Of a DNA stretch of 64,000 nucleotides, positions 39,117 to 44,941 are shown in pieces. The notes under the pieces were generated by a model, which worked only from the letters and a program-made list of their open reading frames with translations, ran no database searches and was not told the DNA's origin. The DNA is taken from positions 1 through 64,000 of the forward strand of contig VGZA01000017.1 of the NCBI GenBank assembly GCA_016872775.1, written 5' to 3'. This DNA comes from Planctomycetota bacterium (GTDB taxonomy: Bacteria > Planctomycetota > Planctomycetia > Pirellulales > Pirellulaceae). Position 1 is the first letter of the stretch, and each line of letters begins with the position of its first letter. A program made the position numbers and the translations under genes.

Positions 39117-39120
39117 AGCC

Positions 39121-39199
39121 CGAATTTCCGCGTAGAAACGCAAAGACCCGCTGGGATGAGCCAGCGGGTCTGTTTGCTTCGAGCCACCTTGCGGTGGCC
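39121..39199 (+). repeat. 79-nt direct repeat, left copy (with ssrA-terminator hairpin)
   Basis: 76 of 79 positions identical to 43500-43578. Begins CGAATTTCCG, contains the perfect 10-bp hairpin GACCCGCTGG/CCAGCGGGTC (arms 39145-39154 and 39161-39170) and ends TTGCGGTGGCC. The right copy is the 3' flank of ssrA. Differences are single bases at repeat positions 11, 51 and 77. It marks the left border of a 4.4-kb segment holding the GntR/ABC cassette. Confidence 0.85.
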
Positions 39200-39216
39200 G
39201 TGTTAGTGGTGGCAAG

Positions 39217-39594
39217 GTGGTGGTTTCCGTTCCCGTCAGGTTCTATCGCCGAAATGGCCGGCAGATGATCCTGGCTGACAGCCATGAACCGGAATCGAAA
39301 TCCACTGAAGCTGCGGTCCCGAACAATGCGCTGCTGACTGCCCTAGCCAAAGCGTGCGCCTGGCAGGAGCAACTGGAATCGGGGCAATTCGAAGACCTCG
39401 AGGACATCGCCAAAGAGCAAGGCGTCGACCGCAGCTACGTCGGGTGAATGCTGCAGCTGACCTCGCTTGCGCCGGATATTGTGGAGTCGATCCTGGCAGG
39501 ACAGGCCTTTGCCGACATTAGCTTGCAGAAATGCCGCAAAGGCATTCCCGCTCTCTGGGCTGATCAACGTCGATCCTTGATCGCGGCGGAATGA
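39217..39594 (+). pseudogene. broken recombinase-associated small protein gene
   Basis: One frame of 125 codons from 39217 to the stop at 39592, interrupted by TGA at 39445-39447. Translation: VRFYRRNGRQMILADS, VPNNALLTALAKACAWQEQLESGQFEDLEDIAKEQGVDRSYVG-stop-MLQLTSLAPDIVESILAGQAF, ADQRRSLIAAE. It matches the small helix-turn-helix accessory protein commonly found beside site-specific recombinase genes in Planctomycetes and Alphaproteobacteria (S-Y-V-x-R-x-L-x-L-x-x-L-A-P-x-I-V-E-x-I-L). The TGA replaces the conserved arginine codon (CGA to TGA is one base). No recombinase gene remains. Confidence 0.7.
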
Positions 39595-39710
39595 ATGCGA
39601 GTCCCCATCGCTACAAGCCGCATTCTTCCGTTTCTTCACAACGATTGATTGACAATTAGGCACTTCCACCAGTTCTGGAGAAAAGACAATAGACCGGCCA
39701 GGATTCGCGC

Positions 39711-39746
39711 TTGACCACCGAATCCTACTGTGTATATACTGTGTAT
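39711..39746 (+). promoter_or_regulatory. sigma70-type promoter and GntR operator, leaderless start
   Basis: TTGACC (39711-39716), an 18-nt spacer, then TATACT (39735-39740), close to the sigma70 consensus. The -10 box lies inside a tandem TACTGTGTATA/TACTGTGTATA repeat (39726-39746) that contains the palindrome GTATATAC, as expected for an operator of a YtrA-type GntR regulator. Transcription from this -10 would start at or within a base or two of the ATG at 39747, so the mRNA should be leaderless. Confidence 0.65.
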
Positions 39747-40145
39747 ATGAACACGCACGGTTGGATCACGCTCTCGCAGAGTGACCCGCGGGCTCTGTAT
39801 TTGCAGGTCATCGAGCAAATCCAGCGGCGCGTGGCGGTGGGCGATTTGCCGCCGGGGACCGAACTCCCCTCCATTCGGCAACTTGCTGCGGATCTCTCCG
39901 TCAGTGTGATCACCATCAAACGGGCTTACCTGGAACTGGAACGCTACGGAACAATCACAACGCGTCAGGGCAAAGGGTCCATTGTGTCTGATGATCCCGG
40001 TCTGTCGACATCGATCGCCGAGCGGGAACTGGAATCGCACCTGAACGAAGCCGCCCAATTGGGATCGCTGCTGGGACTGTCGAAAAGAGAAATGCAACGG
40101 CGGATGGCCGAAGCGTACGAAACATCACTGGGGAAAAAGAAATGA
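39747..40145 (+). CDS. GntR-family (YtrA-type) transcriptional regulator
   Basis: 132 aa from the ATG at 39747. Winged helix typical of GntR: ALYLQVIEQIQRRVAVGDLPPGTELPSIRQLAADLSVSVITIKRAYLELERYGTITTRQGKGSIV. The short C-terminal tail (about 45 residues, helical) is that of the YtrA subfamily, which has no ligand-binding domain and usually represses its own ABC-transporter operon. An upstream in-frame ATG (39711) would place the operator inside the gene, so it was not used. The stop overlaps the ABC gene start (ATGA). Confidence 0.88.
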   Translation: MNTHGWITLSQSDPRALYLQVIEQIQRRVAVGDLPPGTELPSIRQLAADLSVSVITIKRAYLELERYGTITTRQGKGSIVSDDPGLSTSIAERELESHLNEAAQLGSLLGLSKREMQRRMAEAYETSLGKKK

Positions 40146-41065
40146 ATAGCAAGCTCGACCGACCCCAGCAGAATGCCTCCGCGGCTTCGCTGCGTGGTGT
40201 CACAAAGTCCTACAAGCACTTCCGGCTCGACAAAATTGACCTGGAAATCGAACCAGGAACCGTCAACGGTCTGATCGGCCCCAACGGCGCAGGCAAATCC
40301 ACGATCATGCGTATCATGATGGGACTGGTGACGCCAAAATCGGGAACGGTTTCGGTACTGGGCAAATCTATTTCGTCGCGTGAAGCGAGTGCCAAACAGG
40401 ATATTGGCTTTTTTTCCGACGACATGCGTCTCTACAAGTCGGAATCGATTGCCTTTCACATGCAATTCGTGCGTTCGCTTTTCCCAAGCTGGGACGAAGG
40501 CTACGCTCAGCAACTGCTCGACCGGTTCGGGCTGATCGCGCAGCAAAAAGTTAAAGGGTTTTCGCACGGCCAACGGGTCAAAGCCCTTCTGCTGCTGATT
40601 CTCGCGCGGCGTCCCAAGTTGCTGATACTCGATGAGCCTACCAACGGACTCGATCCAGTGGCAAAGCAAGAAGTTCTCGCGGAGCTGATGCAAATCGTCA
40701 ATGACGAAACGCGAACAATTTTGTATTCGTCGCACAATACGCAGGATGTCGAACAGATCAGCGACACAATCACGTTTATTGATCGCGGAAGAGTGATTGC
40801 CAGCAACAACCGCGATGAGTTTCTCGATCGCTGGCGTCGATTCAAATTGCAAGCTCCACAGAATTGGCAAGCTCCTGCGATTGATGGATTGCGCCCTGAG
40901 TCAACCTTCGGCAATTTGCGAGTGATGACATTGGATCGGTACGAGACCGGGGTTGAAGATCAACTGCAATCGTCGGGCGCGACCTTGGAGTCGTCCGAGG
41001 CTATGACACTTGAAGAGATTTTTATAGCCGCCGTTTCACGCGGTCGAGAGGAAAAGCAACAATGA
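40142..41065 (+). CDS. ABC transporter ATP-binding protein
   Basis: 307 aa. Walker A GPNGAGKS (46-53), a Q-loop region KQDIGFFSDD, variant signature FSHGQ (140-144) in place of LSGGQ, Walker B LLILDEP (160-166), D-loop NGLDP, and switch histidine in SSHNTQDVE. Residues about 230-307 form a C-terminal extension typical of YtrB/CcmA-like subunits. Pairs with the next gene; the second membrane component is not present, so the permease probably forms a homodimer. Overlaps both neighbours by 4 nt. Confidence 0.92.
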   Translation: MNSKLDRPQQNASAASLRGVTKSYKHFRLDKIDLEIEPGTVNGLIGPNGAGKSTIMRIMMGLVTPKSGTVSVLGKSISSREASAKQDIGFFSDDMRLYKSESIAFHMQFVRSLFPSWDEGYAQQLLDRFGLIAQQKVKGFSHGQRVKALLLLILARRPKLLILDEPTNGLDPVAKQEVLAELMQIVNDETRTILYSSHNTQDVEQISDTITFIDRGRVIASNNRDEFLDRWRRFKLQAPQNWQAPAIDGLRPESTFGNLRVMTLDRYETGVEDQLQSSGATLESSEAMTLEEIFIAAVSRGREEKQQ

Positions 41066-41736
41066 ACACACAGGCTATCCAGATACTGTTTTTAAAGGAC
41101 TTGTTCCTTAGCCGTTGGCCGATGTTTGGCTACTTGGTGGGTGGGCTGTTGAGCGTGATGGTCACTTGCCTGCCAGGTGAGTCGGCGGGTTTCATCGGTT
41201 TCATTTTGATGATTACGGTGACGATTGCCGCCGGAATTCACTTGATCGGCGCGTTACTGCTGGGCGAGTCGATTGATATGACGCGGACATTCATCATGAG
41301 TCTGCCGATCAGCTTACTTGATTACTCGCTCGCCAAGATCTCAGTCGTGCTTGTCGCATTCTTGATTCCGTGGTTCGGAATGCTGGCGAGTTTGACGATC
41401 ATCACTTTCGTCGCGCCGGAAGCCAAACCAGGCATATTACCATTTCTCGTTCTGTTGTTCCTTTTTATGCTGGGGGGATTCTGTTTGCAGTTGTTCACTG
41501 CGGTGGTAACGGAATCGGTAGGTTGGACGATTGTCGTGCTTGTATTGGGCAACGTAACCTTGAATTTGTTCCTCAAGATGCTGTACGAGCATCCGGTAAT
41601 TTCGAAACTGAACAAAAGCGAAGTTCTTTCGTGGCCGCCTGTTGTCTTGCAGATCATTGCCATCGAAGCCATCGTAATTCTGGCCGCGCTGGGACTTACG
41701 TTTATGTTTCAGATTCGTCGAAAGGATCTCGTTTGA
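41062..41736 (+). CDS. ABC transporter permease
   Basis: 224 aa with six hydrophobic helices: FGYLVGGLLSVMVTCL, IGFILMITVTIAAGIHLIGALLL, LVAFLIPWFGMLASLTIITFV, LPFLVLLFLFMLGGFCLQLF, WTIVVLVLGNVTLNLFL and VVLQIIAIEAIVILAALGLTFMF. Starts with the MNTQAIQILFLKDLFLSRWP pattern of ABC-2-type permeases. The stop overlaps the acyltransferase ATG by one base (TGATG). Codon use here is richer in A/T than in the flanking housekeeping genes. Confidence 0.88.
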   Translation: MNTQAIQILFLKDLFLSRWPMFGYLVGGLLSVMVTCLPGESAGFIGFILMITVTIAAGIHLIGALLLGESIDMTRTFIMSLPISLLDYSLAKISVVLVAFLIPWFGMLASLTIITFVAPEAKPGILPFLVLLFLFMLGGFCLQLFTAVVTESVGWTIVVLVLGNVTLNLFLKMLYEHPVISKLNKSEVLSWPPVVLQIIAIEAIVILAALGLTFMFQIRRKDLV

Positions 41737-42899
41737 TGGCCGCTGCGTCCGGCGCTTCGTCGCGGATTCACTATCTCGATAACCTTCGGGCGTTGGCGAT
41801 GATGCTGGGACTGTACCTGCATAGTGCGTTGGCCTACGCCGAACCAGCTCGGTCGGTCTGGATCGCTACCAATCCTGGGGGAAGCGTGGCAGTTGATGCT
41901 TCGATATGGTACATCCACCTGTTTCGAATGGGACTGTTTTTTTTGCTGTCGGGCTATTTTGCTAAGCTGATGATCCAGCGCAAAGGGCTCAAGCCGTTTC
42001 TGTGGAATCGCGTGATTCGAATCGCTTTACCATTCGTCTTATTCTGGCCGTTGTTGGTGGTGGCGATGGCGATCGTTTTCGTTTTTGCTTTTGCTTACGT
42101 AAAGGAACCTCAAGGATTGTTGGGGTTCATTGTCGCAGCGGGCAAGGATCCTGAAGCTGCAAAATCATCAACACCCTACACCACGATGCATTTGTGGTTT
42201 TTGTACTATCTGCTGATGTTTTCCTTGATCGCAGCGGTTTGCAGCCGTTGCCAACTGTTGAAATTCGATTGGCTGTTTGAACGGAATTGGTTGCTCGCTC
42301 TTTTACCGCTGGCTTTGGTTCCTGGGGTGTTGGGCGGCGGACTTCCCATTGCGGCACCCGAGTCTTTTATTCCAACTTGGTGGCCATTTGCTTTTTACGG
42401 CTTGTTCTATTGGGCTGGTTGGCAGTTGTTCGGCCGTGAGGAGTTGTTGGATCGTCTGCAACCGTGGCGTTGGCTTCTGGTCTCGGCAAGCGTCTTCTTG
42501 TTCGTGCCCCATTACTACTTGCTGCCCGTGCTAGACGTCGAGTTGATTAAAGAGGCCGCCGAATCACGGAATGTGACGCCAACTTTGTTTGAAGCGGTGC
42601 TGGCCTCGTACCTTTCTGCTCTGTTGACGCTTTCGGCGTTGTTGATTGGTCAGCGGTTTCTGGCTCGATCGAATGCTTGGCTCAAGTTCTGCGCCGATTC
42701 ATCCTATTGGGTGTATTTGATTCACTTGCCGATCATTCTCTTTTTGCAGACTCTTTTGATTCCGATTGCGATACCGGTTTTGGGAAAGTTGGTTTTGGTA
42801 ATCCTCGTTACGTGGCTTTTTTGCATGGCGACATACGTCGTGTTTGTGCGGTACACACCGATCGGCTGGATGCTTATCGGAAAGCGGACCTTTCCCTAA
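41736..42899 (+). CDS. membrane acyltransferase 3 family protein
   Basis: 387 aa from the ATG at 41736. Acyltransferase_3 fold: HYLDNLRALAMMLGLYLHSALAY with the conserved histidine, a RVIRIALPFVLFWPLLVVA segment with the family's arginine, and about ten membrane helices, ending in YWVYLIHLPIILFLQT and VFVRYTPIGWML. The closest pattern is the OpgC/MdoC-like group that succinylates or acetylates exported glycans. Last gene of the GntR-ABC-permease-acyltransferase operon, suggesting that an exported molecule or envelope glycan is modified. Relatively AT-rich. Confidence 0.87.
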   Translation: MAAASGASSRIHYLDNLRALAMMLGLYLHSALAYAEPARSVWIATNPGGSVAVDASIWYIHLFRMGLFFLLSGYFAKLMIQRKGLKPFLWNRVIRIALPFVLFWPLLVVAMAIVFVFAFAYVKEPQGLLGFIVAAGKDPEAAKSSTPYTTMHLWFLYYLLMFSLIAAVCSRCQLLKFDWLFERNWLLALLPLALVPGVLGGGLPIAAPESFIPTWWPFAFYGLFYWAGWQLFGREELLDRLQPWRWLLVSASVFLFVPHYYLLPVLDVELIKEAAESRNVTPTLFEAVLASYLSALLTLSALLIGQRFLARSNAWLKFCADSSYWVYLIHLPIILFLQTLLIPIAIPVLGKLVLVILVTWLFCMATYVVFVRYTPIGWMLIGKRTFP

Positions 42900-42963
42900 T
42901 GCGACGTTTGCCAATTTGTGAACCGGGAATAGAGAGCCGAAGTCCATTGTTAGGTCAGGTCAG

Positions 42964-43068
42964 GTCTTGGCTGATGGCGTTGAAACAGAATCCGACTCCA
43001 GCTCCATGGAACCCGCGGTCCCCAACAACGCACTTCTAAATGCATTAGACACGGGCTCTTTTTTTTAA
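42964..43068 (+). pseudogene. second fragment of the recombinase-associated gene
   Basis: About 34 codons: VLADGVETESDSSSMEPAVPNNALLNALDTG, then TTTTTTTT and a stop. It aligns with LADSHEPESKSTEAAVPNNALLTALAKA of the pseudogene at 39217. Only the part before the DNA-binding region is left. It lies 65 nt after the acyltransferase, so remnants of the same gene sit on both sides of the cassette and in the same orientation. Confidence 0.7.
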
Positions 43069-43499
43069 CGGCAGATTGTCTGGAAATCCGGGACTGGCAT
43101 AGGCGTCTCTCTATCGTGCTGTTTTGAACTTTGGTGCCGTCTCCATGATGCGACTGTGTTTGGGCTTGTCGGCAGATTCTATCAAGCCGATCTTTTGACC
43201 GCAGCCGGAGAATTTTGAAGTTGGCTGCAAACGAACCATCGCATCCGGCAAGCTGGACCTCGGGACGTGATGGGCAGGTTTTTTATGTCACTGCCACTGG
43301 CGTTGTTCGCAAAAACCTCGCGACGTTACGAATCACGGAAGTGCCGCGTTTTACAGGGTTTTTGAGCACGGGACGTGTTTGGGGGTCGTCCCGTGGTTTT
43401 GAGCCTTTGCCCCCGATTTGAGCCTTTTGGGGTGGCGATGGGGGGCAGGCGCGTCCCGTGGTTTGGACACGAGCAAAGTTTGGCGTCTCGCAAAAGCCC
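43069..43499. other. non-coding region between cassette and right repeat
   Basis: About 430 bases with no convincing gene. A short open frame (43215-43421) ending SRGFEPLPPI has no homologue that I recognise. Contains a 12-nt direct repeat GTCCCGTGGTTT (about 43389 and 43453). Probably decayed element DNA. Confidence 0.5.
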
Positions 43500-43578
43500 C
43501 GAATTTCCGGGTAGAAACGCAAAGACCCGCTGGGATGAGCCAGCGGGTCAGTTTGCTTCGAGCCACCTTGCGGTGACC
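43500..43578 (+). repeat. 79-nt direct repeat, right copy
   Basis: Matches 39121-39199 at 76 of 79 positions. It starts CGAATTTCCG, includes the hairpin described separately as the ssrA terminator, and ends 7 nt before the 3' end of tmRNA. Confidence 0.85.
43514..43549 (-). terminator. ssrA terminator hairpin
   Basis: On the minus strand, 10-bp stem GACCCGCTGG/CCAGCGGGTC (arms 43540-43549 and 43524-43533) with a 6-nt loop, followed by TTTGCGTTTC. It is about 37 nt beyond the mature 3' end of tmRNA. An almost identical stem occurs at 39145-39170. Confidence 0.75.
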
Positions 43579-43585
43579 AAGTTTA

Positions 43586-43946
43586 TGGAGGCGGCGGGGA
43601 TCGAACCCGCGTCCCGAGGCATTTCCGTGTGAGCTTCTACGGGTGTAGTCGGTACTTTGTATTTCGCCGCACCGGGCCCCCACCGACAGGATACCGGTCC
43701 GACTAGTCAGGTACTTTTTTTAGCGTGCAACGTTCCCGACGTGATTGCCCGCGAACCGGAATTGGCGACCGACTTTTGGGACTCTCCGGTGAAGTCCCGC
43801 AGCCGGATGCTACCGTTTAATTAGGCAGCAAGAGCGAGGTTACCCTCAGCATTCAAATTGTGGTCAGATTTTTGCGTGGCCGTCTGACCAACCACGACTC
43901 GCCACTCACACTTCAAGCTGTCCGGTCGAAACCATTATTCGCCCCC
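43586..43946 (-). ncRNA. ssrA: transfer-messenger RNA
   Basis: 361 nt. The 5' end GGGGGCG (43946-43940) pairs with CGCCTCC at the 3' end (43592-43586, with one G-U), forming the alanyl acceptor stem; the discriminator A is at 43586 and CCA is not encoded. GGTTTCGACC follows the 5' stem, and the T arm reads GGGTTCGATCCC. The tag frame GCT GAG GGT AAC CTC GCT CTT GCT GCC TAA (43850-43821) encodes AEGNLALAA, of the usual A...ALAA type. Rescues stalled ribosomes together with SmpB and marks products for proteolysis. Genes for tmRNA are frequent integration sites, relevant to the repeats nearby. Confidence 0.93.
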
Positions 43947-44158: not shown

Positions 44159-44941
44159 CTACCGCAACTGCCAGAAAACGATCGTTAACCCCGAGCACAG
44201 GCACCAGGCGGCGAAGATCAGGAATCGGCCCTTCTCAAGAAGTCGCATCAGGACCGACAACGCGCCCAGTCCTACCGCGAACGAGATCAGCGCCCCATAG
44301 AGCAGGTTTTGCCAGGGCGTGTGAAAACCGTGTCGAAACAAGGAGATCCCTTCGATCAGCCCAGCTCCGCCGATGGCGACGATTGCCATCATAAACGAAA
44401 ACGTCGCCGCGGCCTGGGGACGCAGGCCGAGGTAAATTCCGGTCGAGATCGTCGTGCCGCTCCGTGAAAGGCCGGGCAGGACGGCACATGCCTGGGCCAC
44501 TCCGATCAGCAGGGACTTGCCCCAGGTAATCTGCCGGTAGTCCTGATCGCCAGGCCGAGTCCGCGACGCCAGCGCCAACACGGTGGCGGTCACCGTCAAC
44601 ATACACCCCGCCAACAAGGGGCTGGACAACCATTCTTTTGCAAACATCACGATCGGAATCCCAACGCATGCAGCGGGTAAACTCGCCAGCAGGACCATTC
44701 CGGTCGTCCGCCAGTCACCAGCGAGCAGCTCGCGGAGACGACCGCGGTAGAAAATCAGCACCGAACCGAGCGTGCCCAGATGCAGGACGATATTCACATC
44801 GGCGACATCCAGTTGCTCGGGGTCACCGCCGCTGAGCAGCGCCGCCAGGATCACCAAGTGTCCGCTGGAACTCACCGGTAGAAACTCCGTAACCCCTTGC
44901 ACGACTGCGAGAATTACGATCTTCCAAAGTTCCAGTTGCAT
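44159..44941 (-). CDS. uppP: undecaprenyl-diphosphate phosphatase
   Basis: 260 aa, eight membrane helices. BacA/UppP signatures: VVQGVTEFLPVSSSGHL (first conserved loop with Glu and the SSSGH run), HLGTLGSVLIFY, and the second loop VLPGLSRSGTTISTGIYLGL. Dephosphorylates undecaprenyl pyrophosphate to recycle the lipid carrier for envelope polysaccharides and peptidoglycan. The presence of UppP fits with glmS, kdsB and a glycan acyltransferase in the same window. The region 43947-44158 before ssrA shows no gene. Confidence 0.95.
   Translation of the reverse strand: MQLELWKIVILAVVQGVTEFLPVSSSGHLVILAALLSGGDPEQLDVADVNIVLHLGTLGSVLIFYRGRLRELLAGDWRTTGMVLLASLPAACVGIPIVMFAKEWLSSPLLAGCMLTVTATVLALASRTRPGDQDYRQITWGKSLLIGVAQACAVLPGLSRSGTTISTGIYLGLRPQAAATFSFMMAIVAIGGAGLIEGISLFRHGFHTPWQNLLYGALISFAVGLGALSVLMRLLEKGRFLIFAAWCLCSGLTIVFWQLR

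Follow-up and report, generated by a model that had tools for sequence, protein, structure and literature searches.

Genes and repeats at the ssrA locus

The window analysed here, a 64,000-nt stretch of DNA from a member of the Pirellulaceae, carries the tmRNA gene, ssrA, on the minus strand at 43583-43946. The Rfam model RF00023 identified it with 153.8 bits, while ARAGORN found no tmRNA in the window. The acceptor end is encoded at 43586, with CCTCCA read from the sequence at 43586-43591. Directly behind the gene lies the right copy of a direct repeat (43500-43578, minus strand), and the left copy is found at 39121-39199 on the same strand. An earlier note on this DNA had described a 79-nt repeat that encloses a hairpin behind ssrA and stops 7 nt short of the tmRNA 3′ end. 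This description is borne out: the two copies agree at 76 of 79 positions (96%), the right copy ends at the stated distance from the acceptor end, and strong RNA folds are obtained for both (-38.7 and -42.4 kcal/mol, z -5.8 and -6.5). Each repeat consists of an arm and a terminator hairpin, at 43524-43549 in the right copy and 39145-39170 in the left, and the U tract following the hairpin is short. Since the tmRNA gene occupies 43583-43946 on the minus strand, the right copy is the 3′ flank of ssrA.

Only one family of direct repeats of at least 25 nt is present in 33-46 kb. It is 95 nt long (39119-39213 and 43498-43592; 92% identity), and the distance between the starts of the two repeat copies is 4379 nt. 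The idea that the repeat is scattered genome-wide was rejected for the genome to which the window belongs, because the two copies are the only matches in its 5.85-Mb draft (E ≤ 0.001). Comparison with relatives places the right copy in a longer ssrA-end unit (43081-43594, minus strand).

The two copies bracket a 4.4-kb cassette for which GntR, ABC ATPase, permease and acyltransferase genes had been claimed, and Pfam matches confirm all but the permease. The genes, all on the plus strand, encode a GntR-family regulator (39747-40145; PF00392, start codon read from the sequence), an ABC transporter ATPase (40142-41065; PF00005, ABC_tran), a predicted membrane permease of an ABC system (41062-41736) and an acyltransferase 3 family protein (41736-42899; PF01757, Acyl_transf_3). 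The name "permease" is that of the earlier note and is taken from the gene's place in the operon, which is conserved; the protein has no match in Pfam, NCBIfam or PHROG. The GC content of the cassette is 52.1%, compared with 59.6% for the window.

No integrase was found with Pfam between the repeats or elsewhere in the window, which holds only remnants of a recombinase partner gene. One remnant, immediately next to the left repeat, derives from the gene of an HTH protein, the putative partner of a large serine recombinase, and is broken (39206-39567, plus strand). It matches by tblastn with 61% identity over 112 aa at 39232-39567, has an in-frame stop at 39445-39447, and its first stretch, 39206-39231, was assigned by eye. 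A second short piece, with approximate limits of 42970-43050 (plus strand), is placed by alignment with the partner ORF of a relative (G129) and has no tblastn match of its own. Partner-gene pieces are thus present at both ends of the cassette, the second scrap lying beside the right unit.

The operon across the family

A total of 241 genomes of the family (G-numbers; G000, the genome of the window, is the only one of its genus) were searched, and 17, including G000, have a permease match. The four cargo genes form a true operon in this family, because they occur together in the same order in 14 of the 17 (broken in G063 and cut by a contig end in G236). The other three lack one or two of the genes, two of them at a contig end. 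The tmRNA gene was located in 13 of the permease genomes. The operon adjoins it in two (G000 and G129); in G138 the two share a contig but are separated by about 94 kb, and in ten genomes they are on different contigs, although the assemblies are fragmented, so that distance is not proven for these. Conservation of the operon beside ssrA in all relatives, an outcome that would have spoken against an island, was therefore rejected with 2 of 13 adjoining. As expected for an island, the cassette content is missing behind ssrA in relatives such as G010, which has no permease match anywhere.

Displaced ssrA ends and their motif

With 43250-43595 of the window as the query, 36 places were found in 25 of the 241 genomes. 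Sixteen adjoin tmRNA and 20 do not, one of the latter being the window's own left repeat. Among the 19 non-adjacent matches in other genomes, 13 include the last 9-11 nt of ssrA and six stop short (G112:C150, G111:C232, G062:C454, G072 and two in G148). In all 13 that reach the ssrA end, a form of TTGCGAGTCYANGAMR immediately precedes that point. The count of 36 is unselected; the 11 places inspected further were chosen because the match starts at the ssrA end.

Searching the 241 genomes with a combined 25-nt pattern gave 31 places in 19 of them, against one for the backward control. Behind the motif, CRCAA occupies +14 to +18 in 17 of 30 loci, and none of the remaining offsets between 1 and 26 has it. 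Common descent links many of these loci, and the 17 therefore do not count as independent events. The motif count refers to 31 places, the CRCAA count to 30 loci with contexts, and the recombinase check described below to 31 sites, obtained from a larger set of loci in which identical contexts were merged.

G108, a complete genome, has two motif sites 18.1 and 26.4 kb behind ssrA and on its strand, and G250 has one in the same orientation at 10.4 kb. The ssrA flank of G205, a genome with a terminator sequence unlike the window's, is 78% identical to a displaced copy over 204 nt, and in G250 the corresponding value is 78% over 49 nt. Three displaced-type sites are situated near lepA (L109, L221 and L249), and some of these may not be linked to ssrA. 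The islands inspected carry defence-like genes and pretoxin HINT pieces.

Recombinases behind ssrA

Both serine and tyrosine recombinases are found behind ssrA in relatives. In G108, G121 and, as fragments, G081, the region 2.4-4.1 kb behind ssrA encodes a large serine recombinase with Resolvase, Recombinase and Zn-ribbon domains, and an HTH gene follows it. Against the CcrB model the recombinase scores 160 bits, far under the cut-off of 900. The overlapping gene order and the PHROG label "recombinase" suggest that the HTH protein is a putative partner of the serine recombinase. On the element side of the motif, a recombinase similar to one of three queries was detected at only 2 of 31 sites, with 0.3-6 kb of sequence available per site. 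In G000 itself, serine recombinase similarity at E ≤ 1e-40 is limited to a 105-aa stretch on another contig.

It is conceivable, if doubtful, that a tyrosine rather than a serine recombinase made the island and the displaced ends. Relatives of the G010 tyrosine recombinase start 0.2-0.9 kb behind ssrA in eight of the nine genomes with a match and a located tmRNA. Moreover, G010 has two displaced ends and belongs to several motif genomes with no serine recombinase match at E ≤ 1e-40 (others are G112, G115, G122 and G250). However, the window and G129 keep remnants of the serine recombinase partner, and G000 has no match to the G010 enzyme at E ≤ 1e-10. The tyrosine elements in G010, G067 and G071 also place a different hairpin, with a T run, directly behind ssrA; therefore, other islands too bring a terminator. 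A large serine recombinase with its HTH partner is the most likely source of the site-specific recombination that would have made the island; the recombinase and the left end of the element would later have been deleted.

Comparison with G129 and G010

The earlier note had proposed comparing the regions downstream of ssrA in related genomes. G010 and G129, which are close relatives, are 95.5% identical over 2377 aligned nt ending at the last base of ssrA and diverge exactly beyond it. (The G129 stretch before ssrA was compared with 16 tmRNA loci, many on short contigs, and matched G010 only; 1e-10.) Beyond ssrA, G129 has a terminator unit and the operon, whereas G010 has the tyrosine recombinase gene (PF00589) 0.2 kb downstream; its copies of the terminator unit are on two other contigs. 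Positions 43098-43594 of the window match a displaced copy in G010 (L038, 430-926) at 83% identity, and 43258-43616 match the ssrA flank in G129 at 86%. The left repeat resembles that G129 flank (94.7% of 95 nt) slightly more than it resembles the right copy in the window (92%).

G129 belongs to another genus and carries the operon 2 kb behind its own, different ssrA in unchanged orientation. Neither the motif nor a second repeat was found in G129, whose contig ends 2 kb past the operon. Window positions 39502-43076 are 89.4% identical to G129, and in 150-nt steps the identity is 94-99% over 39741-41690, 69-85% over 41841-43040 and 85% in the ssrA-end unit. The GntR-ABC-permease DNA is about 97% identical over roughly 39.6-41.8 kb only. 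At 4-fold sites the identity is 96% for GntR, 97% for ABC and 91% for the permease, versus 52% in the acyltransferase gene and 35-36% in two genes of the backbone (two further rows, of 294 and 213 aa, are omitted as overlapping wrong-frame ORFs). Backbone DNA matches of at least 200 nt between the two genomes are 64-71% identical. Because the identity of the operon is high but uneven and that of the backbone is low, the sequence comparison indicates that the operon is shared horizontally, one part more recently than the rest; the GntR-ABC-permease part would be the one exchanged last. The unevenness also means that the segment was not transferred whole in a single recent event.

This pattern is open to another explanation, namely that an old island became fixed behind ssrA and that the identity to G129 reflects homologous exchange of the GntR-ABC-permease part between chromosomes, not island movement. 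The confinement of the 97% identity to about 2 kb, with lower values in the acyltransferase part and the ssrA-end unit, fits such an exchange, as does the presence of the four-gene operon in 14 of 17 genomes, mostly away from ssrA. We regard it as rather unlikely: the two genomes in which the operon adjoins ssrA belong to different genera, even the 4-fold sites of the acyltransferase are closer to G129 than those of the backbone genes, and the GC content of the cassette is low. The probabilities given to the alternatives overlap with that of the main reading because how the last exchange took place and which kind of recombinase acted are distinct questions.

The left junction

The main weakness of the island reading is the left junction, where the TTGCGAGTC motif found at intact displaced ends is absent and a few bases are common to the repeat end and the HTH pseudogene (by eye). 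The junction could be a deletion at microhomology. The left copy is 3′ flank of ssrA with at most 7 nt of the gene itself, including one mismatch, which the pseudogene could equally explain. GCCACCA at this junction was at first taken for a sure ssrA remnant, but these letters also agree with codons of the partner pseudogene, and the reading was withdrawn. The idea of a pseudo-attachment site within the pseudogene was rejected too: inspection by eye showed no TTGCG arm where one would be expected, and scanning the window with a relaxed motif (up to 6 substitutions) gave no site. Given the missing motif and the shared bases, the original far end was probably deleted at this junction, or the duplication arose otherwise. 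A segmental duplication, in which slippage or illegitimate recombination copied the ssrA terminator and the operon arrived between the copies independently, would account for the junction without an element-end motif, for the bases shared with the pseudogene and for the absence of an integrase from the window, but it is quite improbable, as the left copy appears to end at the ssrA end like 13 displaced copies elsewhere, the operon is behind ssrA in G129 too, and partner-gene scraps flank the cassette on both sides.

A probable island and its proposed formation

The operon in G129, the displaced ends and the break between G010 and G129 support the suggestion of the earlier note that the segment may be a small island bounded by a duplicated 3′ flank, and the relatives indicate that mobile DNA has inserted at this position more than once. 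We consider it probable that 39200-43586 holds a small genomic island, its integration genes since lost, which sits at the 3′ end of ssrA and has displaced the previous ssrA end. The cassette is read as a decayed or trans-mobilised (CIME-like) ssrA island because the window holds no integrase and a broken partner gene abuts the left repeat.

In the proposed mechanism, islands of this kind would recombine with the last bases of ssrA (CCGCCTCCA). The incoming island would restore the acceptor end and supply a terminator, and the insertion would push the previous ssrA end, arm and terminator, to the far side of the island. In this scenario, the right repeat would now serve ssrA, the left repeat would be the displaced earlier end, and the cargo would be the horizontally acquired four-gene operon.

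Relation to known systems and significance

The nearest known system is that of the ssrA-specific islands of Dehalococcoides described by McMurdie et al. 2011 (PMC3146451). These islands stand in tandem behind ssrA and use a CcrB-type serine recombinase; 15 of 31 have no integration module, and the histories of cargo and integration module differ. Their insertion in the T loop involves a 20-bp repeat with the conserved motif TTCAGRSMGMRKCCA beside it. The ssrA target, tandem stacking, serine recombinase, motif near the repeat and recombinase-less islands are common to both systems, and a serine recombinase is similarly present in part of the Pirellulaceae islands (G108, G121 and, in pieces, G081). 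T-loop insertion is not seen here; the displaced copies start 9-11 nt before the ssrA end, and the repeat runs through the terminator. The motifs also differ (TTCAGRSMGMRKCCA in Dehalococcoides versus TTGCGAGTCYANGAMR in the Pirellulaceae), an HTH partner gene follows the recombinase here, and the window's island is only 4.4 kb long and without a recombinase. The unusual feature is that the duplicated end carries a terminator.

Islands catalogued by Islander at tRNA and tmRNA genes (PMC4383910) are alike in having an intact target at one end, a displaced end piece at the other and cargo between. They are defined by tyrosine integrases and a gene fragment, whereas nearly all of the displaced piece in the window is 3′ flank; in 2014, these authors stated that tyrosine integrases were the only kind known to target tRNA and tmRNA genes (PMC4383910). 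CIMEs, as outlined in section 10 of PMC3146451, also hold cargo between attachment-like repeats without integration or transfer genes, although the left end in the window looks damaged and its ends are only putative attachment sites. Integron cassette arrays may serve as an analogy only, for stacked and mostly recombinase-less cargo.

Dehalococcoides is the case of serine recombinase islands at ssrA found in the literature searched, and the Pirellulaceae would be a second group. With its terminal crossover and carried terminator, such a group would show how elements spare an important RNA gene. The 25-nt end motif offers a practical signature of island ends in planctomycetes. More tentatively, the 3′ end of ssrA in the Pirellulaceae may anchor a cassette-collecting system, in which mostly recombinase-less cargo with a dyad site (TTGCG...CCGCCTCCA...CGCAA) and a built-in ssrA terminator would be stacked behind ssrA, and a serine recombinase together with an HTH partner would mobilise it in trans. 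If so, each insertion would leave the tmRNA intact and properly terminated.

Gene neighbourhood of ssrA and of displaced copies of its end

Upstream of the tmRNA gene ssrA, the window carries a BacA gene (44162-44941), and a BacA homologue lies near ssrA in several further genomes, with matches at eight of the 69 loci searched, the window's own included. At three displaced-type sites, where copies of the ssrA end and the conserved motif stand away from ssrA, a lepA gene is found nearby (loci L109, L221, and L249), on a side of the site that varies. This lepA may be either an old ssrA neighbour or the marker of a second target.

Immediately after CCTCCA, the encoded acceptor end, a short palindrome is present at loci L195 and L213 (complete genome G108), L198 (G112), L202 (G119), L210 (G213), and L228 (G094), and in most of these it is followed by a GAGAGT(A/G)GACAGGAGAAAG-like sequence. 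Together, the two look like a repetitive (REP-like) element.

The unit of ssrA-end sequence and terminator is also contained in a contig titled Candidatus Kuenenia (L080, CAMARC010000244.1), with match statistics identical to those of the contig of G129, a genome of another genus; this contig is perhaps mis-binned.

Recombinase-like genes and cargo

In G108 (L187, 4736-7987), a second ORF resembling a serine recombinase is succeeded by a pair of ParB-like ORFs, all recognized by eye, at a distance of 3.3 kb from a displaced site; this arrangement is reminiscent of the Dehalococcoides integration module.

Segments behind ssrA also carry defence-like genes [L125 (G121, contig C181), L134 (G081, contig C152), and, in G108, L118 and L188]. 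These include a match to HmaA scoring 2032 bits, together with AbiEii, a protein kinase, and a DNA methylase, and G108 holds one type I methylase-like and one SIR2-like ORF, as judged by eye.

Near ssrA-type sites, related ORF pieces recur (L037, L109, L110, L111, L115, L116, L120, L128, and L248). Since the one piece subjected to a domain scan (L037, 1653-2384) is a pretoxin HINT domain, this recurrence suggests polymorphic-toxin arrays in the ssrA-site islands.
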